Positions 3,851 through 27,994 of a stretch of DNA of 59,329 nucleotides are shown here, piece by piece. The stretch is from an uncultured Paraprevotella sp. Its GTDB lineage: Bacteria > Bacteroidota > Bacteroidia > Bacteroidales > Bacteroidaceae. The translations under genes and the position numbers were made by a program. The stretch covers positions 1 to 59,329 of the forward strand of contig CALUKY010000017.1 of NCBI GenBank assembly GCA_944321345.1, read 5' to 3'. The notes below the pieces were generated by a model. The model saw only the letters and a program-made list of their open reading frames with translations, did no database searches and was not told where the DNA came from. The stretch's first letter is position 1. Every line of letters begins with the position of its first letter.

Positions 3851-3925
3851 TGATTCCGCTGCGACTCGAACGCAGGACCCACGCCTTAGAAGGGCGTTGC
3901 TCTAATCCAACTGAGCTACGGAACC
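3851..3925 (-). tRNA. tRNA-Arg (anticodon TCT), copy 1
   Basis: The reverse complement folds as a full cloverleaf: acceptor GGTTCCG/CGGAATC, D-stem GCTC/GAGC, anticodon stem ACGCC/GGCGT around loop CTTCTAA (anticodon TCT), T-stem CTGCG/CGCAG with TTCGAGT. CCA is not encoded. It is the last of four tRNA genes transcribed leftward. Confidence 0.95.
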
Positions 3926-3948
3926 ATCCTATACAAACAAAAAAAGAG

Positions 3949-4023
3949 TGATTCCGTTGGGACTCGAACCCAAGACCCACGCCTTAGAAGGGCGTTGCTC
4001 TAATCCAGCTGAGCTACGGAACC
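3949..4023 (-). tRNA. tRNA-Arg (anticodon TCT), copy 2
   Basis: Nearly identical to the neighbouring TCT copy, with the same acceptor and anticodon arms. Its T-stem is TTGGG/CCCAA instead of CTGCG/CGCAG, so the base changes are compensatory and pairing is kept. No encoded CCA. Confidence 0.95.
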
Positions 4024-4035
4024 ATCCTTATTAAG

Positions 4036-4109
4036 TGACTCCCACAGGATTCAAACCTGTAACCTTCTGATCCGTAGTCAGATGCTCTATTCAGTTGAGC
4101 TAGGGAGCC
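4036..4109 (-). tRNA. tRNA-Arg (anticodon ACG), copy 1
   Basis: The cloverleaf reads acceptor GGCTCCC/GGGAGTC, D-stem GCTC/GAGC, anticodon stem TCTGA/TCAGA around loop CTACGGA (anticodon ACG, expected to carry inosine at position 34), and T-stem ACAGG/CCTGT. No encoded CCA. Confidence 0.95.
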
Positions 4110-4124
4110 ATTCCCCAACAAAAG

Positions 4125-4198
4125 TGATTCCCACAGGATTCAAACCTGTAACCTTCTGATCCGTAGTCAGATGCTCTATTCAGTTGAGCTAGGGAACC
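4125..4198 (-). tRNA. tRNA-Arg (anticodon ACG), copy 2
   Basis: First tRNA of the array in the direction of transcription. It matches the other ACG copy except that the acceptor stem is GGTTCCC/GGGAATC, a compensatory C-G to T-A change. It begins 21 nt after a consensus -7 box. Confidence 0.95.
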
Positions 4199-10328: not shown

Positions 10329-11144
10329 ATGAAATATAAAATATTGGTTCTCGACCTGGACGGAACTCTGACCAACAAGAAAAAGGAAATTACCGAACAT
10401 ACACGCGAAACACTGATCCGCGCGCAGGAAGCCGGTATCAAAATCGTGCTGGCCTCCGGACGCCCCACCTACGGCATCATGCCACTGGCACGCCAACTGG
10501 AACTCGACAAGTACGAGGGATATATCCTGGCCTACAATGGCGGACAGATTATCGACTGCAAGACTGGTGAACTGATGTATGAAAATGTGCTTGATCCAGC
10601 CATATACCCTTACTTGTACGAATGTGCCAAAAGCAACGGTTTTCAGATACTGAGCTATAAGGACGAATATATTGTTTCGGAAAATGCCGAAGACCAATAT
10701 GTGCAGCATGAAGCTTTTCTGAATCGCATGGCCAGCAAAACCGTAGAGAACTTCTTGGATGTCATCAACTTTCCGGTAGCCAAGTGTCTGATTGTAGGCG
10801 ATCCGGAACCGTTGGCACAACTGGAACCGGTGATGAAGAAGGAACTGGAAAGCAAAATGAACGTATTCCGCTCCGAACCGTTCTTCTTGGAACTGGTACC
10901 TAAAGGCATTGACAAGGCTCGCTGTCTGGCCGTTCTGCTCGAAGAACTGGGTATGACTCCGGACGAAATGATGGCCTGTGGCGACGGATTCAACGACCTG
11001 TCGATGATTGAATATGCCGGTTTAGGCGTAGCCATGGCCAATGCTCAGGAAGTAGTGAAACAAGCTGCCAACTACATTACCCTCACCAACGAAGAAGACG
11101 GTGTGGCTCATGCCGTAGAAAAATTCATGTTGAATGCGGAGTAA
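10329..11144 (+). CDS. Cof-type HAD-superfamily phosphatase
   Basis: A 271-residue HAD hydrolase. Motif I is VLDLDGTLT with the two catalytic aspartates at residues 9 and 11, motif II is VLASGRP, a conserved lysine follows (PKGIDKARCL), and motif IV is MACGDGFNDLSMI. This is the Cof/YidA class of sugar-phosphate or nucleotide-associated phosphatases with a C2B cap; the substrate cannot be read from sequence. The ATG at 10329 is used because the frame upstream is only reachable through a TTG overlapping the tex stop. It ends the four-gene run and is followed by a hairpin. Confidence 0.9.
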   Translation: MKYKILVLDLDGTLTNKKKEITEHTRETLIRAQEAGIKIVLASGRPTYGIMPLARQLELDKYEGYILAYNGGQIIDCKTGELMYENVLDPAIYPYLYECAKSNGFQILSYKDEYIVSENAEDQYVQHEAFLNRMASKTVENFLDVINFPVAKCLIVGDPEPLAQLEPVMKKELESKMNVFRSEPFFLELVPKGIDKARCLAVLLEELGMTPDEMMACGDGFNDLSMIEYAGLGVAMANAQEVVKQAANYITLTNEEDGVAHAVEKFMLNAE

Positions 11145-11177
11145 TCTCTCTGTTACAGATTATTTTTCTTAAAACAT

Positions 11178-11227
11178 AAAAATTGTCTATAGTAATCTTT
11201 GAATGACTTACTATAGGCAATTTTTTA
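11178..11227 (+). terminator. Hairpin terminator after the HAD gene
   Basis: AATTGTCTATAGTAA pairs with TTACTATAGGCAATT (one mismatch) around a short loop and is followed by TTTTTT, about 35 nt after the HAD stop codon. Confidence 0.75.
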
Positions 11228-11234
11228 TATGACA

Positions 11235-11277
11235 ATAAAAAACTGTCCGCTATCAGAAAATGATACCGGACAGTTAC
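11235..11277 (-). terminator. Terminator after the 47-residue peptide
   Basis: AACTGTCCG-C-TATCA (11241-11255) pairs with TGATA-C-CGGACAGTT (11261-11275). Reading leftward, the hairpin is followed by a T-rich run (TTTTTTATT). It lies 45 nt beyond the stop of the small peptide gene, which it should terminate. Confidence 0.8.
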
Positions 11278-11319
11278 ATTTTACTCTTTAAGTATTAAAG
11301 ATACTGGAAGAACCAGATC

Positions 11320-11463
11320 TTACTCCCAAATATTCTCAAACATCTGCTCATTAACAAACTGATCACTTCCTTCTGAACCTGATACAGGCAAACTCATGGA
11401 ACAGATATCCGTTTCACAATAAGCTATAACCTCCATTTTTGGAGCCATATATTCTTTTCTCAT
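11320..11463 (-). CDS. 47-residue micropeptide, Bacteroidales KxYxxP type
   Basis: A 47-residue frame starting with ATG at 11463 and ending with TAA at 11320, short enough to be missed by most gene callers. It begins MRKEYMAPKMEVIAYC and ends in an acidic/aromatic tail (FENIWE). The start resembles the many small Bacteroidales proteins of the form M-K-K-x-Y-x-x-P-x-x-E-V, which have no assigned function. It has no signal peptide and two cysteines (C16, C21). It begins 10 nt after the stop of the 1,522-residue protein and is followed by a strong terminator, so it is likely the last cistron of that transcript. Confidence 0.6.
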   Translation of the reverse strand: MRKEYMAPKMEVIAYCETDICSMSLPVSGSEGSDQFVNEQMFENIWE

Positions 11464-11473
11464 ATTGTAATAG

Positions 11474-14400
11474 TTATTTGATTATTACTTTCTTACCGTT
11501 CACAATATATACGCCTGGAGTCTTCATATCCTTCACACGACGTCCACTCAGATCATAAATCTCTACATCATCTTTATCTAGAAGTCCATCTATACCAGTT
11601 ACGGTTGAATCGTCCCAAACCATACCACGAATCTGTTTTCCGGCAGGCAAATCCAAATAAGCTTTAAAGGCATTCAGAGAACTTCCAGAATATTTGAAGA
11701 AACCAAGTTGATTGTCTACAATCTGCAAAGTATAAGGATTTACATACTCTGCAACTGCTCTATCAACAAAAAGACCATGCAGGTCATTCTGCAACTGAAG
11801 ATTTTCCTGTCCACTGGCATCATATGGCAACTGATATTCTCCAGACATACCCTTGATGACAACTGGAACTGCCGGTGGCACGATATTACCCTCTAATGCG
11901 GTCATCTTCATATATTCACCATCGACCTTTCCGACATAAGCTACCATTCCTTCTACCAGTTTCACTGCTACAGGAAGATAAAGTGTAGCATAACCCTCAC
12001 CTTCATAATCCTGCAGTCTGATATAAAAGGAAGGAACACATTTATCAGAAATGTCCTCCACATGCCAATAAGTATCCTGCTTGTTCTGATCACTCTGTAA
12101 AGCTAAATAAACACTTTCATCATTGGATGCCAAATAGAAAGAGTCCTCAACAACGATCTGAACAACGCCTGGCACACCTGAAACCTCTATGAATTCAACA
12201 GATAAGCCTGTAGAATCTATTGCATAACCAGCACCGTTCAATTGCAAGTGTTTCATATTACCAGTCAAATGCTTGTCCTCACCATAAAAGAACGCAGATT
12301 CCTCAGCAGAAACATCTGAAGATAAAACCAAAGAGTTTTCGCTAACTGCAGAAACAAGATACTGATTTTGCAGATTTCTCAAACGATAAGTACCTGCAAC
12401 ATCTGGCAAATTCAAACGCAAGGCATTCATGGCACTCTTTAAAGATTGTAACAGAATCCAGCATTCATTATTAGTAGCCTCTGATAACTTCTCTAAAGCC
12501 TCATTATAGGAAGCCATAAAACCAACGGTATCAGTATACAATCCTACATGATCACCGATGTAGGGCAGATAAGCCTCACTCTTTTCCAAGTATCGAGCCA
12601 AAAATTCTGAATAATCCGGCTTTTGCGATGATACATACGGTAAAAATAATATTTCACGACTCGGCTCAAAACCTCTTATCTGCTCTGGTAGCAAATAAGC
12701 AAAGTTTGTTTGATTGTAAACATAATCAGAAGATTGCACTTCCAAGACATTCTCCGGCACAGGACTAAGAATATAAGATCCAATAGGAGAAGAAGCAGGC
12801 AGATAACAAGCGACCAGTCCATTAACCGTTTTTTCCGAAGCGACAACAGCATCTGAAGCGACCTGAATCTCTACAACCAAAGAATCATTGTTATCGATCA
12901 AAGCCTCATTATGTCCAGGCAAATAATAAAATGGCTCACCGGCCTCTACTTTATTATTTTCTTTTACTGACAAAACGATTCCATCTTCTTCATCTCTAGC
13001 TACCTCGTAAACAGAAACTTCCTGGCTGTAACTATCCTGAATGCATTCAAGTCCTACTGGGAAAGCATAAGATTTCAATTTACCACCAAGGACCTTCTCA
13101 TAATTGATTTTAGGGAACTTATAATCACCAACAGGCACACCTTGCTCCGTACGATCAGTAGTATAGATATCCCAACAAGAGCCACCCCCCAAATCATGAC
13201 TAGTCCACAGACCTACAAGTTGCTCTAATGTCTGCACATGCAAATAGTTTCTATTTTGCCCGCTCATATCATATCCGTTCAGAGTAAAAGTACCATATCC
13301 AATCTCGTCCAACTTAAAGGAAATAGGATTAATAGACAACTGAGTTTTTGTAACACCGTAATTTGTATTGTCAGAAACAAACAAACCGGTAGCTTTATTC
13401 TGAATCGCATAAGCAGTATCACCAACATTTACAAACCGCCAAGTAGCGTAATCCAAATCAGTAACACCGTTTGCATTCATTTCTTCTATTGTACCAACAT
13501 GTAATGCAGCTCCTTTCATCAAATCATTTTCAGGCTTTATATACAGCATGCCATGACGTACATATTTCACTTCCATTGTTTCCTGATCAACATAGCGATC
13601 CTGTTCTTTACCGGTAATGTCATAATATCTCTGGCTGGCAGCTATATGATACCAGACACCTGAGTTCTCGGTATCAGCAGCTACAATCTTACGCTGTTTG
13701 TCCTTAAAGATCTGATATGCATCCTTTAATTGCTGTGTTAAAAGTTCAACATCTTCAATGGTAAAGGACATACTCTGTTCATAATCAGAAATCGTTTTTT
13801 CTACTGATTTAACAGCTGTCATTAATTGTTCGCGATCAGCCTCAGCATAAGTTCCCGGATCCGGATAAATCTCAGTTATGTCTGCATAAGTTTCCTCGCT
13901 AACAGACATCTCATAGTCTGCCTTTATTTCTTTCAGTAACTCCTTTACTTCTGTCAAATCTGGCAACACCTGGCTATAAGCCAAATAGGCTGTATTCAAT
14001 TTTTCATATGCAGCAGATAAAATCGCAATAGGAACTTGGTCGATATTGAAAAAAAGACGCACCTCATCAAGTTCTTTCTTTAACGCATCTGCTTTTTCCT
14101 TTATATCAGCCCGATTATTCAATGCGTTCTGATTAATCTCAGCATTTTGAATATGAAATTCTCTCAAACGAGCAGCTCCCCCCTCTGATGTCCAATAAAC
14201 TCGAATATACTGATACTGCGACCCTAATATAACTACAGGCAACTGTATTTTAGAATTAAAAGAAAAATCATCATTCGGTATATTTTTTATACTTCCTGCA
14301 TATATCCAACTATTAGTATCTGTAGGATCATTTGTTACATAAAAATCAAGTTGTGTAACATTTCCTAATACATACGCACCTTCCAGTTCTACAGCAAAAC

Positions 14401-20415: not shown

Positions 20416-22692
20416 TCAGAACTTGATGCTGGCATTGAACTCTACGGTAAATGGGCGCAGGTAGCTTCCGCTCATGTAGTAACCGGCATATTGTCCGGCC
20501 TCAGCCTTGGTGATCAGCTCTGAACCGCTGATGGTTCCCTTCACACCTTTCTGATTCAGGAAGTTCACGAAAGTTACACCCAAATCCAGATGCTTGTTCA
20601 CCTTCCAGTTCACACCTCCGAAGGTTTCCCAGCGTCCGTTGAAGTAAAGAGCCTCCTGCAGGTTGGCATAAGTCTTTCCAAAGTAACGGAAGCTCAACCA
20701 CAAACGCAGATCATCGGTGATATTATAGCTCGGATCCAACTCAACAAGTACCTGCGGGATCTCCTTTACAATCATATTGTTGGCATTGACAGACATCTGG
20801 GTTCCGTCGTTGAAGGTCACGCTGGCATTGTAGTTCTTGTATACCGGTTTCTGATAAGTGAAGAGGGCATGCAGATGGAATCCCTTGAACGGATCGATCT
20901 CGGCAGAAGTGGTCCATCCCAAAGTCTGGATATCATAGATCAGCAACACGGTCTTTCCTTCGTCAGTTCCCGGCTTGGTCAGGTTCTGCTGGTCGATGTT
21001 GTTTGTCTTGGCAATATAGGTAACCATGGAAGTCAGGTCCAACCAGCTGTTCTTGTAGAACAGACCACCACGTACCAAAGGAATGGTCACACGGTTGTAC
21101 TGCTCTTCAGTAGGACCGGTACCGGCATATTCGTTGATTCTCGGGAAGCGGGTTGCCACGGTTCCGTCGGCAGTCAGACCGAAGCCCTTACCTACATTAT
21201 AGGTAACGCGTGCGGTAGCCGCATAGTTCAGTTTGTCTTTCGTTACGTTGGCCGGAGTAATGACTGCGCCGTCGGGTGCTGTATCGCCAATATAGAAACC
21301 GGAATAACGCGGATGGGAAATCTGGTCGGCAGACATGTGATAGTATTCCAGACGTCCGCCATAGTAGAGGTTCAGTTTCGGAGTAATCTGCCAGTCATCG
21401 GTCAGATACAAAGCCAGCTTGTTTTCATTGCCGACAGTATATTCCGGACTCAGCTCATTGAAACCGCGGAACTGGTTTCCGTCCGGACCTACCAATACAT
21501 CAGGATACTCTTTTACAGAACCGGTCCACTGGAAGGATGATGAATGATAATCCAGATCATAGAACCATTCGTTCAGTCCTAAACGGACATTATGATTATT
21601 GAACTGCTTCTGCAATTCAGAAGTAACTAAGAAATTCTGTACTTTTCCGAAGTGCAACCAGGTGCGACGGCCGTCTACCAGTCCTGAGTAAGGGGTACCG
21701 TCGGCAAGTGTATAGCCCTGGTCTGCTGTAACCTTAGAAATGGTACTTCCACCGAAGTCCACATAATTTGCCTCAGGAGCATTCATATACTTCATGTCAA
21801 GTTTGAAATTCAAACCGTTCTTGAATGCATAGTCAGTGAGCAAGGAAACTTCATGTGAACGGTTGTCGTTCAGATCACGCAGGTTGGCTTTCTTCATCTT
21901 TCCGTCCATGATATCCATATATTCGATATCACCGCTTACGGGACCGTATGAAGCCAATCCCGGCTCAAATCCCTCCAGTTCTTTGATGGAACCGTCACCG
22001 ACATAAATAAACGGAGCGGCGTTCAGCATATTTCCCGGGTTGCGGCTGTAAGCATACTTATAAAGCAAACTGATCTTACCGCGGTTGTTGTTGAACAGAC
22101 GGGTCAGTCCGGCATGATAAATCTGAGTACGGTCAGAATATTCGTCAAACTTCACATCGAAACTTCCGGGATCAAAATTCTGATAGACACTGGCGGTATA
22201 GAGCCATTTGTTTCCAATACCTCCGGAAACATTCATGTCTACCTGCTGCATGCCATAGTGATTGGCACGATAATTCACAAATCCTTTAAAATCTTTCTGT
22301 CCCAAACGGCTGAACGAGTTCACCGAATAGGCAATGTTTCCGGTGGTGATGGCAGACTCTGACGGAGTCATCAATCCAACCTCTCCCAAGCTGGCATCGC
22401 TGCGCCAGTGAGCAGACAATTTATGAACAGAAGACGAATATACGGCAGGCAGACCGTTTTCGTATACATTGACATCCTCACTCGGTAAACCGATCTGAAT
22501 CTCGCGCGGTTTGTTGGCATCAGATGCGTTCAACATAACATTGCGTTCGCTACCGTCGGCTTTCTTTGTCTGAACAGTGTCGGCAACTTGTTCTATCTTT
22601 GCTTTCTCTAATTTTTTTGCTTTCTGTGCTGAAACAGGTAATGCAGTCCAAAAGGCCACGATTACAAAGCAAGGAATAATATTCTTTTTCAT
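20416..22692 (-). CDS. TonB-dependent receptor without SusD partner
   Basis: A 758-residue outer-membrane receptor. The ATG at 22692 opens a signal peptide (MKKNIIPCFVIVAFWTALPV then SAQ); earlier codons are leader sequence. A short N-terminal segment (ERNVMLNAS) is followed by a plug-like region with PREIQIGLPSEDVNVYENG, and then a long series of barrel strands with aromatic girdles. The C-terminus ends in FNASIKF, with the terminal aromatic residue typical of BAM substrates. There is no CarboxypepD_reg domain and no SusD gene next to it, unlike standard Sus pairs. Its partner is the downstream GH36 enzyme, so an alpha-galactoside cargo is inferred. Confidence 0.85.
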   Translation of the reverse strand: MKKNIIPCFVIVAFWTALPVSAQKAKKLEKAKIEQVADTVQTKKADGSERNVMLNASDANKPREIQIGLPSEDVNVYENGLPAVYSSSVHKLSAHWRSDASLGEVGLMTPSESAITTGNIAYSVNSFSRLGQKDFKGFVNYRANHYGMQQVDMNVSGGIGNKWLYTASVYQNFDPGSFDVKFDEYSDRTQIYHAGLTRLFNNNRGKISLLYKYAYSRNPGNMLNAAPFIYVGDGSIKELEGFEPGLASYGPVSGDIEYMDIMDGKMKKANLRDLNDNRSHEVSLLTDYAFKNGLNFKLDMKYMNAPEANYVDFGGSTISKVTADQGYTLADGTPYSGLVDGRRTWLHFGKVQNFLVTSELQKQFNNHNVRLGLNEWFYDLDYHSSSFQWTGSVKEYPDVLVGPDGNQFRGFNELSPEYTVGNENKLALYLTDDWQITPKLNLYYGGRLEYYHMSADQISHPRYSGFYIGDTAPDGAVITPANVTKDKLNYAATARVTYNVGKGFGLTADGTVATRFPRINEYAGTGPTEEQYNRVTIPLVRGGLFYKNSWLDLTSMVTYIAKTNNIDQQNLTKPGTDEGKTVLLIYDIQTLGWTTSAEIDPFKGFHLHALFTYQKPVYKNYNASVTFNDGTQMSVNANNMIVKEIPQVLVELDPSYNITDDLRLWLSFRYFGKTYANLQEALYFNGRWETFGGVNWKVNKHLDLGVTFVNFLNQKGVKGTISGSELITKAEAGQYAGYYMSGSYLRPFTVEFNASIKF

Positions 22693-22773
22693 ATTGATAG
22701 TTGTTATAAGGGTTTCTCGGGTAATTTTCATTATTTCATGGTATCTGTTCTGTTCTTCCTCCGAAGACGTAGG

Positions 22774-22781
22774 CAAATGTA
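22774..22781 (-). promoter_or_regulatory. -7 promoter box for the TonB receptor operon
   Basis: TACATTTG on the minus strand matches TAnnTTTG and lies about 80 nt upstream of the chosen ATG, which supports that start over more distal codons. No clear -33 box. Confidence 0.5.
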
Positions 22782-22905
22782 GCAAGCAATATGTAAAGTT
22801 GTTATTAAAAGTAGCAAATAAGTAGATCGAATACATATGTTATACTTTATAATATACGGTAAATCAATATATTACAAAAACTACTATAAGATATATAAGT
22901 AGATA

Positions 22906-22937
22906 TTTTTAGATTAAAAATCTTTTGAGTATATTTG
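22906..22937 (+). promoter_or_regulatory. Promoter of the membrane-tethered regulator
   Basis: TATATTTG (22930-22937) with a T-rich -33-like element about 19 nt upstream. It lies 27 nt before the ATG at 22965 and diverges from the receptor promoter. Confidence 0.55.
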
Positions 22938-22964
22938 CTGTATCGCAAAAAAAATAAGGTTATA

Positions 22965-24584
22965 ATGAAGAATCTATTTATATTTCTACTTCTGTTTATT
23001 GTTTCGGGAACCATTAAAAGTACTCCAGTAGATATTTTATATCAGCAACTGGAGGAATGCCTGACCAAGCGTCCTGAATACGCTCAAAAGAAAGAAGCAC
23101 GAATAGACAGCATCAAGAAAAAATGGAACCGGCATATGCCACTGAAACAAAAATTCGACCTTTACTTTAAAATATTTCAGGAATACTATACCTATCGTTC
23201 CGATTCTGCCTTATATTATATTGACCACGCTTATCAGTTTGCTGTACAATTAAACAACCCAGTCTATCAGGATCAATGCACCATTCACAAATCACTTCTG
23301 CTTTCCACTACCGGATATTTTAGTCAGGCTAAAGAAATGCTCGACCACATCAATAGGGCAAAAATTGATCCGTCATTACTGGCAGAATATTATGAAGCAT
23401 ACGAATGGGTATACAGCGTATGGAGTGAATATCTGAATGATGACCTGTATTCCCCAACATACAAGAATCTGGAAATTCAATATACGGACTCACTGCTCTC
23501 CGTTCTGCCTCCCCAATCGGCCAAATTTTATTATTGGCAGGGAGAATATTTCGCACGCACCGGAAAACAGGAAGAAGCTGAAAAAGCTTATCAGCAAGCT
23601 TTAAAAGGATTGTCACAAGATACGCGACTCTATGCCTGCGTCACCTGCGGAATAGCCTTCACCTATATGCGACGCGGAGAAATGAAAGAATACGAGCGCT
23701 ATCTGATCATGTCGGCCATTTCGGACATGATCTGCCCTTTAAAGGAAAATCTGGCTATGCAGGAACTGGCCATGTATATATTCAAAAATAAGGATGGGGA
23801 TCTGGAGCGGGCCAACCGATACCTGAATGTATCTATGGAAGATGCCATGTTCTACAACAACCGGTTGCGCATGCTTGAAATCGCGCGAAAATTTCCATCC
23901 ATTGTCAGTTCCTATCAGGAACAGAGTTACATCAAGAACCGGAGAATGACCTGGGCTTTTGTCTTTATCTGCATTCTTTCTGTCGGCCTGATCGTATCGC
24001 TGTTTTTTATCCGCCAGCAGGTAAAGCAAATCCGTCTGCGCAGAAGAGCCATCGCCGAAATGAATCAGGAACTGCGTCAGCTCAACCAGGAACTGTTGCA
24101 CACGAACCGTTCACGTGAGGAATACATCAGTCTGTTTCTGGATCTATGTGCCGCATACATTGACAAACTGAGTAAATATCAGGAACTCGTGCGTAGAAAG
24201 GTCAAGGCCAAACAGATTGACGACTTGCTGAAAATAGCCAATTCCACCAAAATGCCGGAATCGGATGCCAAACATTTCTTTGTAAACTTCGATACGGCGT
24301 TTCTGACACTTTACCCGAATTTCATCAAAGAGTTTAACGAACTGCTGCGCGAAGGAGAAGAAATTGAGGTAAAACGGGGCGAACTGCTGAACACCGAGCT
24401 GCGCATCTTTGCGCTGATCCGCATGGGAGTGAAGGACAGTTCGCGCATTGCTACCCTGCTCTTTTACTCTCCCCAGACCATATATAATTATCGCACGGCG
24501 GTAAGAAACCGGGCCCGAGACCGGGAAAACTTTGAGGAACAGGTCAAGCAACTGTGCCCGATTATGGAAAATAAAGAGGAATAA
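22965..24584 (+). CDS. DUF6377-type TPR/transmembrane/HTH regulator
   Basis: A 539-residue protein with a signal-like N-terminus (MKNLFIFLLLFIVSG), a periplasmic helical region with TPR-like repeats (about residues 30-310, for example GKQEEAEKAYQQALKGL), one transmembrane segment near residues 329-349 (FVFICILSVGLIVSLFF), a coiled coil, and a cytoplasmic C-terminal domain ending in a LuxR-like helix-turn-helix (DSSRIATLLFYSPQTIYNY). This is the layout of Bacteroidales DUF6377 regulators. It is divergent from the TonB receptor/alpha-galactosidase operon and probably controls it in response to a periplasmic signal. The ATG at 22965 is preferred over an upstream TTG inside the promoter. Confidence 0.8.
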   Translation: MKNLFIFLLLFIVSGTIKSTPVDILYQQLEECLTKRPEYAQKKEARIDSIKKKWNRHMPLKQKFDLYFKIFQEYYTYRSDSALYYIDHAYQFAVQLNNPVYQDQCTIHKSLLLSTTGYFSQAKEMLDHINRAKIDPSLLAEYYEAYEWVYSVWSEYLNDDLYSPTYKNLEIQYTDSLLSVLPPQSAKFYYWQGEYFARTGKQEEAEKAYQQALKGLSQDTRLYACVTCGIAFTYMRRGEMKEYERYLIMSAISDMICPLKENLAMQELAMYIFKNKDGDLERANRYLNVSMEDAMFYNNRLRMLEIARKFPSIVSSYQEQSYIKNRRMTWAFVFICILSVGLIVSLFFIRQQVKQIRLRRRAIAEMNQELRQLNQELLHTNRSREEYISLFLDLCAAYIDKLSKYQELVRRKVKAKQIDDLLKIANSTKMPESDAKHFFVNFDTAFLTLYPNFIKEFNELLREGEEIEVKRGELLNTELRIFALIRMGVKDSSRIATLLFYSPQTIYNYRTAVRNRARDRENFEEQVKQLCPIMENKEE

Positions 24585-24602: not shown

Positions 24603-24660
24603 AAACGAAAAAGGAATTCAGAACAACGTCATCCTCTGTTACTGAATTCCTTTTTCGTTT
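24603..24660. terminator. Bidirectional terminator between convergent genes
   Basis: AACGAAAAAGGAATTCAG pairs with CTGAATTCCTTTTTCGTT with A/T runs inside the stem on both sides. It separates the regulator gene (+) from the convergent lipoprotein gene (-) and isolates the riboswitch operon from the TonB receptor operon. Confidence 0.8.
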
Positions 24661-24662
24661 AA

Positions 24663-26018
24663 TTACTTCTTATAAAACATTGAAACCGGATAGATGCCGG
24701 ATACATAAGACGTCTGTCCGGAGATCTCGCGTTGCAACACCACCGGCGTTACGCTGCAATCATACACCAGAATATGATCCGTTGTCGGAACCCCTTCCAT
24801 GTTCTCCACTGTAGTTGACAAATAAAGCAATTGCTTTTTCGGATCAAACATGGGATTGCAGGTCAGATAGTTTGCCTGAGGTTCATCCTGCAAGGCGTCA
24901 ACCAAGAACTCACTGCGGCCTTTCTGATAATCAAAGCGGCTGAGACGGGTTGTTCTGCCCGAATAATAGAATGCCAATCCGGCAACCGATATTCCCGGAG
25001 TATTGGTAAATCCGGCATTCAGGTTTCCGTCTACCCTTTTCGAACTCAGGACCGTAAAACTGCGGCTGTCCACACAATAAATCTTGTTACTGCCTTTGTT
25101 TTCATCGGCATAGGTCGCAAACCAGATCGTATCATTCTCACCGGCACACAATCCACTGACATAGCTGCCGTTGGCAATTCCCAACTTACGGGAAATCTTG
25201 TTACTGCCTTTCTTATATTCGTAAATACCCAGATTATAATCATCGGTGGCCGAAGTCCATCCGCCGACTGCCACATAAGCCCGATCGCCCTTGATGACAA
25301 TATTACGGTCGTAAACCCGACCGGCCACTCCGGCACCCCCATTATCTACTCTGAAGGACTCTTCCAGCAGATTCAGTTCTCCGGTAGTACTGTCAAAACG
25401 ATACAGTCCATTGACATCGCAAATAAAAATATTCCGCTCATCCATCACCGCCAGGTTCGTCAAGCTGTTGGGCACCGGATTAAATTCAGGATCGGTAACT
25501 CCATCAGGTATCGGAAAGCGGAGTTCTTCCAGACGATAGGCTTTCTCCTTACGAAAAGTCTCCGCATCTACAATGATCAGGGCGCCATCATTCGGTTTGC
25601 CCTCCAGACGAAAATAATCCGTACACAAAATATAGAATTTTCCGTTATACAGATACATTGTCTGTGCCTCATTTCCCAGTTCGGTGCCATTGACTTTCTT
25701 ATAGACATCCTCTTCGATCGTACCGTCGGGAGCTATGTAAGTCACTGAGCCGTTCTCCGTAATCCTGTCACCGCAATTCAGCAGAAAAGTTCCGTCGGGA
25801 TGGGCATATCCGCGATAGGACACCACCGAAGTGTCTACCGCTGCCGAATCCACCGGCAACTGTATGGAATCATTTCCAGAAGACGGCGGGTTGGAACCGG
25901 GCGGTTCCGGAAGCGGATCATTTTCAGTGCAGGAAACACCGACAGCCAAGAAGGCTCCCAATATGCAAGGAAGAGAGAATATCTTCAACAGATTATTTGT
26001 TTTCATTGATAAATTCAT
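24663..26018 (-). CDS. DUF5074/YncE-like beta-propeller lipoprotein, copy 2 (BtuG-like)
   Basis: A 451-residue lipoprotein. The N-terminus carries a signal peptide with a lipobox (GVSC) after two possible starts (26018 or 26006), then a Pro/Ser/Gly-rich spacer (EPPGSNPPSSGNDS) typical of surface-exposed lipoproteins. The rest is a YncE/DUF5074-type beta-propeller with blades marked by NGTELGNEAQTMYLYNGKFY, GALIIVDAETF and YRFDSTTGE. It is paralogous to the gene 22 nt upstream, with which it shares a transcript headed by a cobalamin riboswitch. Characterised Bacteroides BtuG proteins are surface propellers of this kind that bind vitamin B12 tightly; assigning this copy to BtuG is inference from fold plus riboswitch. 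Confidence 0.65.
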   Translation of the reverse strand: MNLSMKTNNLLKIFSLPCILGAFLAVGVSCTENDPLPEPPGSNPPSSGNDSIQLPVDSAAVDTSVVSYRGYAHPDGTFLLNCGDRITENGSVTYIAPDGTIEEDVYKKVNGTELGNEAQTMYLYNGKFYILCTDYFRLEGKPNDGALIIVDAETFRKEKAYRLEELRFPIPDGVTDPEFNPVPNSLTNLAVMDERNIFICDVNGLYRFDSTTGELNLLEESFRVDNGGAGVAGRVYDRNIVIKGDRAYVAVGGWTSATDDYNLGIYEYKKGSNKISRKLGIANGSYVSGLCAGENDTIWFATYADENKGSNKIYCVDSRSFTVLSSKRVDGNLNAGFTNTPGISVAGLAFYYSGRTTRLSRFDYQKGRSEFLVDALQDEPQANYLTCNPMFDPKKQLLYLSTTVENMEGVPTTDHILVYDCSVTPVVLQREISGQTSYVSGIYPVSMFYKK

Positions 26019-26040
26019 TCTTTTAATATCTTATTAGTTT

Positions 26041-27444
26041 TTATGTTTGCAGATCAGGGAAATAGAATCCGGCCGGAAAACGGGTCACATTGTCATAATG
26101 AGTCACAAGATTCTGTGAGGTTGTATTTACCACCCAAATATTGTTTTCCGTATAAGTCTGATACTCTTTGATGGTGTTCACATACAGGTGTCCGGTAACC
26201 GGATGCACCGCAATGCCATTATACAGCATACACGCTTTGTTGCCGAATGAATTTACATCCGCAAAAAACTCCTCACCGCTTTCTTCATCATCAAAAGAAA
26301 CTTTGAAAATGCTTGTGCCAGAAGCATAATAGAACTGATTTCCGGAAGAAGTAAAGATGGCTCCGGAAGAGGCCACATCGGGAGCACCTTCTATCCGTTT
26401 CTGTACCATTTTCTTGGTTTCCAGATTGTATTTACCCACAGAATAGTTGCCGAAACCATGAGCTACCACCCAGAACTCATTCTCACCAGCTGCACGGATT
26501 CCCAACACAGTATTGATAGCATATGTTATGCCATACATCGGAAGAGTGATTTTGTTGATCTTGTCCGCATCGGGACTTATTTCCCAGATATAGCCAAAAT
26601 ATGAGGAAGAATAATAAGTATATACCCTACCGTTCATCACCACGAAAGGAGCCTGAGGCGCTCCCTCCGATCCTTCAACAAAGGTCAGTTGACGACTCTC
26701 AGTGTCCAAGCGCCAGATTCCTTTCTTGTCGCGGATGTAAACATGCTGTTTGTCCAAAGCGGCAATATGGGTAGGCCACTCCACCTGCGCCAGATCGGCA
26801 CAGCTGAAAGCATTTTTTTTCTGCAGCGTACGGGCATCTGCTATAACCAGCATACCGTCGTTATTGAACTGCGCTCCCGTAGGTGCCTGATCTCCGTTCT
26901 GAGAAATGATATAAAGCAAACCGCCGGCAACAGACATATCCTGACATACATTTCCCAACTCGGTGCCATTGGAAGTTTTGTAAGCATCGGCCACTACGGT
27001 TCCCGATGGCGAGATATAAGACAGAGAACCATTCTCTGTGGTCATATTTCCTTCGTTCAACACGAAGACTCCTTTTGAACGGTCATACATTTCCAGCTCT
27101 ACCATCACGGTAAACGAAGCAATGCTTCCATCTCCTTTTGCCTGAAGAATCACCGGATAAACACCTTCCCTGGCCTCGGCAACCGGTGCCGTGATCAGGA
27201 TTTTTGAGGACTGCGGGTCCACTTCTGCCTTCCAGTTATCGGGCAAAGTGGCCACTTCCAGACCGGTCATATTCTCGGCGGAATAGCTCAACGTCAACTG
27301 TTGTCCCGGAAAAACGGTGAGCGAGTCGCCCGATACCAGTTCGTTTACTGCGAATTTTACTGCCGGTGCCTCTTCGTTCTGGCAACCGGTAAAGAGAAGA
27401 CCTCCAGCCAAAAGAAGACCTCCCAACCATGATTTCATTTTCAT
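26041..27444 (-). CDS. DUF5074/YncE-like beta-propeller lipoprotein, copy 1 (BtuG-like)
   Basis: A 467-residue lipoprotein beginning MKMKSWLGGLLLAGGLLFTGC with an evident lipobox. Residues about 25-120 form an extra Ig-like beta-sandwich (GQQLTLSYSAENMTGLEVA), absent from the downstream paralogue. The propeller follows (NGTELGNVCQDMSVAGGLLY, GMLVIADARTL, WRLDTESRQL). It is the first gene after a cobalamin riboswitch, so its expression is probably turned down by B12. Surface capture of corrinoids, as in BtuG, is the best guess. No BtuB-type receptor lies in the operon, which is unusual. Confidence 0.7.
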   Translation of the reverse strand: MKMKSWLGGLLLAGGLLFTGCQNEEAPAVKFAVNELVSGDSLTVFPGQQLTLSYSAENMTGLEVATLPDNWKAEVDPQSSKILITAPVAEAREGVYPVILQAKGDGSIASFTVMVELEMYDRSKGVFVLNEGNMTTENGSLSYISPSGTVVADAYKTSNGTELGNVCQDMSVAGGLLYIISQNGDQAPTGAQFNNDGMLVIADARTLQKKNAFSCADLAQVEWPTHIAALDKQHVYIRDKKGIWRLDTESRQLTFVEGSEGAPQAPFVVMNGRVYTYYSSSYFGYIWEISPDADKINKITLPMYGITYAINTVLGIRAAGENEFWVVAHGFGNYSVGKYNLETKKMVQKRIEGAPDVASSGAIFTSSGNQFYYASGTSIFKVSFDDEESGEEFFADVNSFGNKACMLYNGIAVHPVTGHLYVNTIKEYQTYTENNIWVVNTTSQNLVTHYDNVTRFPAGFYFPDLQT

Positions 27445-27799
27445 AAATTAATAATGTGTTTGATAATTGATATTCAATATTTATCCAGACGGTCTACCGC
27501 CCGGTGCATTTCAATGACAGAATCTCACAGGAGTCCGGTATGCTCTGTACAAAAACAGACACACCCTCCCCAATCAGGAAAATACACGTTCCCCGCCCCC
27601 AGACAATCGCCTTTGCATAAAAGACAACAAGTTCACAGATACAGTTCTCCCATTACCGGGGAAAGCACACAGCATCCCTGGCCGGAACAGACAGACTGTT
27701 CTGACAGAATCTATAATGCGGAACCTTTTTCAGACTCCTCTTAAAATGGAAATAATCGTTGACTGTCGCCCTAACCCTAGAGAGCAACAGACCAGTGAA
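27445..27799 (-). other. Long leader between the riboswitch and the first lipoprotein gene
   Basis: About 355 nt separate the aptamer from the ATG at 27444. I found no convincing gene; a 63-codon frame at 27653-27844 overlaps the aptamer and has no recognisable product. Several small hairpins can be drawn, for example around GGCGGTAGACCGTC next to the start. It may be an expression platform, a degraded gene remnant or a further regulatory RNA. Confidence 0.4.
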
Positions 27800-27978
27800 T
27801 GATGGCAGGTCTTCTGACTGACTCCCCTTTTGAAGCCTTCCCAATATGGCCGTCCCATATCAGTGGCAGAAGTGTATTTCAAAAGGTTGAGAATGGAGCT
27901 ACACAGCAGCAGGACTGTTCGGGATTCACACCCGATTCCCTTTTAATCCGTGAGCTTGAACAAGCACTCCGGAACCAA
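27800..27978 (-). promoter_or_regulatory. Cobalamin riboswitch
   Basis: On the minus strand the aptamer shows the conserved cobalamin (B12-box) elements in order: a P2 strand ending in TTAAAAGGGAA, then GGTGTGAATCCCGAACAG, CCTGCTGCTGT, a peripheral region with CCACTG and GGGAAGG, and the closing AGTCAGAAGACCTGCC. This is the usual order of the family. It lies upstream of the two DUF5074 lipoprotein genes. Edges are approximate because the outer P1 stem is weak. Confidence 0.88.
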
Positions 27979-27986
27979 TTCAAAAA

Positions 27987-27994
27987 CAAAGATA
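27987..27994 (-). promoter_or_regulatory. -7 promoter box upstream of the riboswitch
   Basis: TATCTTTG on the minus strand, matching TAnnTTTG, lies about 9 nt before the start of the aptamer, as expected for a promoter that places the riboswitch at the 5' end of the transcript. Confidence 0.6.

Follow-up and report, generated by a model that had tools for sequence, protein, structure and literature searches.

A cobalamin riboswitch and two propeller lipoprotein genes in an uncultured Paraprevotella probably form a cobamide-capture cassette parted from its BtuB receptor

The contig CALUKY010000017.1 of an uncultured Paraprevotella sp. (assembly GCA_944321345.1), whose positions 1 to 59,329 are called the window here, carries a minus-strand unit that consists of a cobalamin riboswitch followed by two lipoprotein genes, named A and B, and of nothing more. 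Gut Bacteroidota compete with one another in capturing cobamides, and the usual picture is that of one operon encoding the receptor BtuB together with its lid BtuG. We consider, with a probability of about 0.68, that the unit is a riboswitch-run cassette of two surface propeller lipoproteins which captures cobamides in trans with a BtuB encoded elsewhere, and that it represents the A-B tail of an ancestral operon. The first-pass annotation, made from the DNA sequence alone, had described a riboswitch heading two BtuG-like lipoproteins with the receptor missing. The receptor is indeed absent, but the setting is a split operon that recurs, A-B being the tail of the operon of relatives. We regard this as the recurrent splitting of an uptake system already known, not as a system of a new kind.

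The riboswitch was identified by an Rfam covariance search as RF00174, with 84.3 bits against a gathering score of 31.5 (E 2.4e-19) over the full model (1-189), and it is the single cobalamin aptamer of the window. The first-pass annotation had the strand and the place right, while its bounds (27800-27978) were slightly short (Table 1). In an alignment of 15 rows, composed of the window aptamer and 14 others from Bacteroidota, the window carries all 63 columns that are invariant across the rows, its own included. The 5' end of the aptamer is TATCTTTG, which fits the Bacteroidota -7 box, TAnnTTTG, as had been proposed; its T's and G are kept in nearly all rows.

Genes A and B are the next two minus-strand genes after the aptamer, and both have lipoprotein-type N-termini (in B the lipobox residue, Cys30, was assigned by reading the sequence, and its column is nearly invariant). 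Both score above the cut-off of 27.2 bits for DUF5074 (PF16819), A with 139.5 and B with 81.9 bits, in agreement with the earlier description of a transcript with only two such lipoproteins. They are probably surface-exposed. Strands at residues 30-117 of A precede the propeller, and no Pfam PKD match was found in A or B; PKD_3 matched 4 of 37 A-family members and 0 of 29 B members, and the PKD match of the BtuK1 orthologue is marginal. Like BtuG, A and B are DUF5074 beta-propeller lipoproteins. The label BtuG-like did not hold, since A and B form a clade of their own (99*), apart from the BtuG clade (99*; 14 BtuG rows, with neither A nor B among them), and relatives carry both beside a true BtuG. 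They also lie outside the clade of the K sequences (95*), the BtuK relatives, and BtuK1 (9s6c) is the closest solved structure to the models of both proteins; A and the BtuK1 orthologue share 22% identity.

Among the 17 other genomes of the genus that were searched, clear orthologues of A and B were found in one, an uncultured Paraprevotella, with identities of 61% and 66%, respectively. In this sister species they close a five-gene operon, riboswitch-BtuB-BtuG-BtuH-A-B, whose BtuH reaches 247.1 bits to the BtuH part of solved BtuG1 and 132 bits to solved 7biz. The same operon is the usual setting of A-B in the family, where the B profile matches 58 of 399 genomes at E 0.001 (16 with at least 163 bits); BtuG and BtuH are sometimes fused, and A commonly comes after BtuH or BtuGH. 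Full operons occur in Phocaeicola, Bacteroides, Alistipes and the sister Paraprevotella, and a true BtuG stands in one operon with A-B in many relatives. The window resembles these operons in its riboswitch and in the order of A and B, and differs in lacking BtuB, BtuG and BtuH and in its longer leader. Other orders were also seen. Six Alistipes loci (L134, L135, L140, L144, L145 and L159) read riboswitch-A-BtuH-BtuB-BtuG, with a longer A protein. In Bacteroides btuB1 loci (L166-L179) the slot after the BtuGH fusion is occupied variably by short DUF4465-type, PKD-DUF5074 or A-type propeller lipoproteins.

The absence of the receptor is not restricted to the window. We compared 81 loci, namely the window and 80 loci in named genomes retrieved with the A profile (the best 80 of 83 confirmed), none of which was dropped. 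The labels BtuB, BtuG, BtuH, A and B come from purpose-built profiles, and in most loci the riboswitch was called by a 14-base core with two neighbouring motifs. The riboswitch motif was present in 75 of the 81 loci, 58 of these with BtuB in the locus (one, L161, resting on a weak BtuB of 136 bits) and 17 without it. Two loci had BtuB and no riboswitch motif, and four had neither, all short contigs (L106, L115, L125 and L139). The receptor-less loci fall into riboswitch-A-B (the window, two Barnesiella, Bacteroides ndongoniae and one uncultured Bacteroidales), riboswitch-A (three Chitinophagaceae, one ending at a contig edge) and riboswitch-BtuH-A-B or BtuH-BtuH-A (nine loci, Phocaeicola faecicola included). 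L141 ends 38 nucleotides (nt) past A, and L114 and L087 end 0.8 kb and 2.2 kb past B, where BtuB could lie further downstream. Rfam confirmed the riboswitch in 8 of the 17, which were all those checked, the window among them.

A tree of A and B was built from 38 rows, each a locus with a single A and a single B long enough to be used; L120 was left out, the A half coming from a neighbouring operon. The sister of the window in it is the BtuB-bearing Paraprevotella (100*). The presence of BtuB requires at least 11 changes over the tree, or 9 without two contig-edge rows; it is simply scattered, and loss and gain are indistinguishable from the tree. Other evidence favours loss in place over gain, namely the sister species, the riboswitch identities and a scar in Coprenecus. 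The window riboswitch is 84% identical to that of the sister Paraprevotella, but two others reach 83%. The P. faecicola cassette riboswitch is 88-91% identical to the full-operon riboswitches of P. plebeius and B. mediterraneensis and 79% identical to the one before its own BtuB-BtuG. In Coprenecus, two loci (L113 and L111) are 97% identical on both flanks, and one of them has no BtuB and BtuG, retaining the riboswitch, some 110 bp from the start of btuB and the last part of btuG. Both are metagenome assemblies, in which an assembly error is possible; the receptor-less cases of Bacteroides, Phocaeicola and Barnesiella come from strain-named records.

A receptor encoded elsewhere was found in most of these genomes. 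In 13 of the 16 other receptor-less genomes BtuB was detected outside the cassette (E <= 1e-40), the best matches being 49-66% identical to the sister BtuB. Of 16 BtuB matches, 14 were read, all but two weaker ones; a riboswitch was present in 13 and BtuG in the same 13, and one Muribaculaceae locus had BtuB alone. In B. ndongoniae the parts BtuB-BtuG-BtuH and A-B, and in P. faecicola BtuB-BtuG and BtuH-A-B, make up the full set together. The genome of the window is a metagenome-assembled genome of 2.9 Mb and 91% completeness, and its contig C48 carries riboswitch-BtuB-BtuGH fusion-PKD-DUF5074 protein. This BtuB has 753.1 bits to solved BtuB1, and BtuGH has 842.3 bits to solved BtuG1. The NCBIfam BtuB model (cut-off 599.7) is far from reached by the C48 BtuB (57.9 bits) and by the sister BtuB (114.2 bits), and the name BtuB rests on solved BtuB1, as BtuH does on 8blw_B and 7biz. 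The distant BtuB that had been suggested therefore exists and has its own riboswitch; it may or may not be the natural partner of A-B, as about 9% of the genome is missing. No observation here calls for the different corrinoid that had been offered as an alternative.

Other genes of cobamide metabolism were also detected in this genome. Contig C27 encodes a FecCD permease preceded by a BtuF-like protein; both share 50-57% identity with their counterparts in congeners, and there is a partial ATPase match. In other Paraprevotella the BtuF-like gene has a BtuB-BtuG pair upstream of it, but such a pair was rejected for C27: the 425 nt remaining on the contig translate as a different protein, and BtuG of congeners gave no tblastn match. 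Contig C37 has a B12-dependent methionine synthase (MetH) domain. For cobamide synthesis only the family GATase_3 was searched, with one marginal match (28.4 bits against 27). On contig C12 (30000-49000, locus L007) another cobalamin riboswitch (100.2 bits; 13732-13938 of the locus, minus strand) heads nrdD-nrdG, an anaerobic class III ribonucleotide reductase (10855-13596, minus strand), which suggests that the genome has an alternative, B12-dependent reductase.

The closest known parallel is operon 1 of B. thetaiotaomicron, where BtuK1 and BtuK2 (BT_1486 and BT_1487) are tandem propeller lipoproteins behind their own riboswitch, like A-B, and a second riboswitch precedes BtuB1-BtuGH (PMC12751083). 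No genome searched was identified as B. thetaiotaomicron itself, and L174, a relative in which the operon 1 gene order was seen, stood in for it (627.9 bits of its K1 to 9s6c and 672.3 bits of its K2 to 4r5o). The same division is seen in the window genome, with riboswitch-A-B in one place and riboswitch-BtuB1-BtuGH in another. The differences are that A-B form their own clade, that no BtuH follows them and that BtuB is on another contig. BtuH operons without btuB are another parallel, more than 80% of btuH genes being in btuB operons and hence some outside (Putnam et al. 2022, PMC8941943); there too an accessory binder is parted from the receptor, but it belongs to another protein family. The word DUF5074 is absent from the main text of that article, and no description of A-B or of receptor-less cassettes of this kind was recognised in the literature searched, mostly outside subscription journals.

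Regarding binding, the mature A and B proteins have net charges of -20 and -17, and that of BtuG2 is -18 (PMC10404256). The cobamide-gripping loop of BtuG2, Asn54-Thr64 (PMC10404256), is present in A as NEGNMTTENGS (residues 130-140), and all 17 A rows, all 14 BtuG rows and 5 of 6 BtuK-like rows keep its Glu-Gly. In B the loop is partial (NCGDRITENGS), with the Glu lost. BtuK1 binds cyanocobalamin with a Kd of 8.9e-11 M by surface plasmon resonance and 1.6e-8 M by stopped flow (PMC12751083). We infer that A is a cobamide binder with a BtuK/BtuG-like pocket; binding by B is uncertain, and B may have a helper role.

Taken together, an ancestral riboswitch-BtuB-BtuG-BtuH-A-B operon would have lost its receptor part here and kept its riboswitch. 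At low cobamide the switch would be open and A and B would be made; with cobamide present it would close. Repression by B12 was reported for every cobamide promoter tested in B. thetaiotaomicron (PMC12751083), and the same is expected for A-B here. A would then bind cobamide, either at the cell surface or on vesicles that have been released, and a BtuB with its BtuG, encoded elsewhere, would import it, which implies a transfer of cobamide to BtuB.

Several observations weigh against this proposal. The C48 BtuB is the only complete BtuB found in the genome of the window and has its own BtuGH adjoining; moreover, it is of the BtuB1 type, only 39-40% identical to the BtuB of the usual A-B operon and in another clade. 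The gene for the natural partner may lie in the approximately 9% of the genome that the assembly lacks, or may not exist. Three of the 16 receptor-less genomes, all Alistipes metagenome assemblies, showed no BtuB at the E 1e-40 cut-off. In Tidjanibacter, one of the 13 genomes with a BtuB outside the cassette, the two units are divergent neighbours about 8 kb apart on one contig, and an A-like gene precedes BtuB. Shuffled labels gave 11.1 changes on the tree, which shows scatter and no direction. The A profile scores BtuG3 above BtuK1, none of the 11 B rows has the grip-loop Glu, and the related propeller BtuK2 is described as not binding cobalamin (PMC12751083). Finally, a simple mode of switching is not apparent in the window: the terminator scan found no consensus terminator on this strand in the stretch from the aptamer to gene A, and the start of A lies far from P13, 360 nt from the aptamer core motif. 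In 50 BtuB-first loci this distance has a median of 77.5 nt and a maximum of 166 nt, and in the other receptor-less loci it is 57 to 445 nt, bar one misread of 1252 (all distances taken to first possible start codons). It is therefore unlikely that, in the window, P13 simply masks the start site of A.

A broader proposal, which we hold only tentatively, is that A, B, BtuG and BtuK are a modular set of surface cobamide handlers, from which the A-B cassette was repeatedly freed from BtuB, with capture and import under separate B12 riboswitches and with service to any BtuB of the cell or to vesicles. The recurrent two-part arrangement implies that the regulation and inheritance of capture proteins can be separate from those of the receptor, and A and B are two widespread propeller families undescribed in the literature searched. 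Since the grip loop is kept in A and partly lost in B, which resembles the contrast between the binding BtuK1 and the non-binding BtuK2, the purpose of a possibly non-binding partner propeller could be tested directly with this pair.

Three other explanations were considered. A and B might be ordinary BtuG proteins, lids for a BtuB encoded elsewhere, as the first-pass annotation read them. They share with BtuG1-3 of B. thetaiotaomicron the DUF5074 propeller, the acidic character and, in A, the grip loop; their clade is separate, A has an extra N-terminal domain and a lid function is only putative for them. This explanation is unlikely, as relatives hold both A-B and BtuG within one operon, the BtuB of the window genome already has a BtuG domain beside it, and BtuG adjoins BtuB in all three B. 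thetaiotaomicron loci (PMC10404256), which A-B do not. We find it still harder to regard the cassette as a decaying relic in which A and B drift under a leftover riboswitch after loss of the receptor. BtuB, BtuG and BtuH are gone from the window locus, the Coprenecus locus is a plain deletion scar, and in the receptor-less locus of Tidjanibacter the A gene reads as two frames. However, the A and B frames of the window are both open and keep the invariant positions of their families, the riboswitch core is conserved, and receptor-less cassettes are found intact in strain-named records of Bacteroides, Phocaeicola and Barnesiella and, lacking B, of Chitinophaga and Pseudoflavitalea. It is equally improbable that the lipoproteins act on outer-membrane vesicles, gathering cobamide or promoting vesicle release under B12 repression instead of serving direct uptake: BtuK2, BtuH1, BtuJ1 and BtuL top the vesicle enrichment of B. 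thetaiotaomicron on starvation, BtuK1, BtuK2, BtuJ1 and BtuL are major contributors to vesicle make-up over time (PMC12751083) and a receptor-free gene set would suit this role, but only BtuJ vesicles are described as an effective B12 source (PMC12751083), and protein location is not readable from sequence.

Table 1. Features of the riboswitch-A-B unit (window positions)
Feature	Position	Strand	Basis or description
Cobalamin riboswitch aptamer (RF00174)	27787..27994	minus	cmscan and 15-row alignment
-7-box-like promoter element TATCTTTG	27987..27994	minus	sequence reading; place conserved in aptamer alignment
P13/L13-like hairpin, loop CUAGGGUU	27763..27790	minus	10-bp hairpin in predicted fold
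Leader, aptamer to gene A	27445..27786	minus	342 nt
Gene A, lipoprotein, 467 amino acids	26041..27444	minus	Cys21; N-terminal beta-sandwich and DUF5074 propeller
Gene B, lipoprotein, 451 amino acids	24663..26018	minus	low-confidence linker and DUF5074 propeller
Perfect 19-bp inverted repeat, candidate bidirectional terminator	24603-24621 / 24642-24660		repeat search

The hairpin with loop CUAGGGUU occupies the position expected for P13/L13, and the loop is also present in the leader of the sister Paraprevotella. The predicted fold of the aptamer end and leader (27815-27445) is slightly more stable than shuffles (z -2.29). No remnant of BtuB, BtuG or BtuH was recognised in the leader against the sister operon and the C48 contig: the best tblastn match had E 0.10, and the best blastn match, E 0.046, lies outside the C48 btu genes. 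A match to the sister leader was rejected as a gene remnant, the matching part being the hairpin loop. A sigma-70 promoter scan was set aside as not informative for Bacteroidota.

Downstream, the inverted repeat lies between gene B and a convergent gene (22935-24584) and is a candidate for the bidirectional terminator of the first-pass annotation; it is absent from the output of a simple terminator scan, as a loop of 20 nt falls outside the limits of the scan. The convergent gene encodes a SusR-like regulator (513.9 bits). The next minus-strand gene past it (20416-22836; 806 amino acids) has a weak outer-membrane-barrel match below cut-off, and was rejected as a hidden BtuB, with no BLASTP match at E 0.01 to either BtuB compared. 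Given this and the gene content of the unit, there is therefore no BtuB in or beside it, as had been claimed. On the other flank, the translations read as ATP synthase genes. Between 18172 and 24584 a GH36-type enzyme, the 806-residue barrel, without a plug match, and the SusR-like regulator adjoin and are perhaps a small glycan locus. Four tandem tRNA genes were found on the minus strand at 3851-4198.

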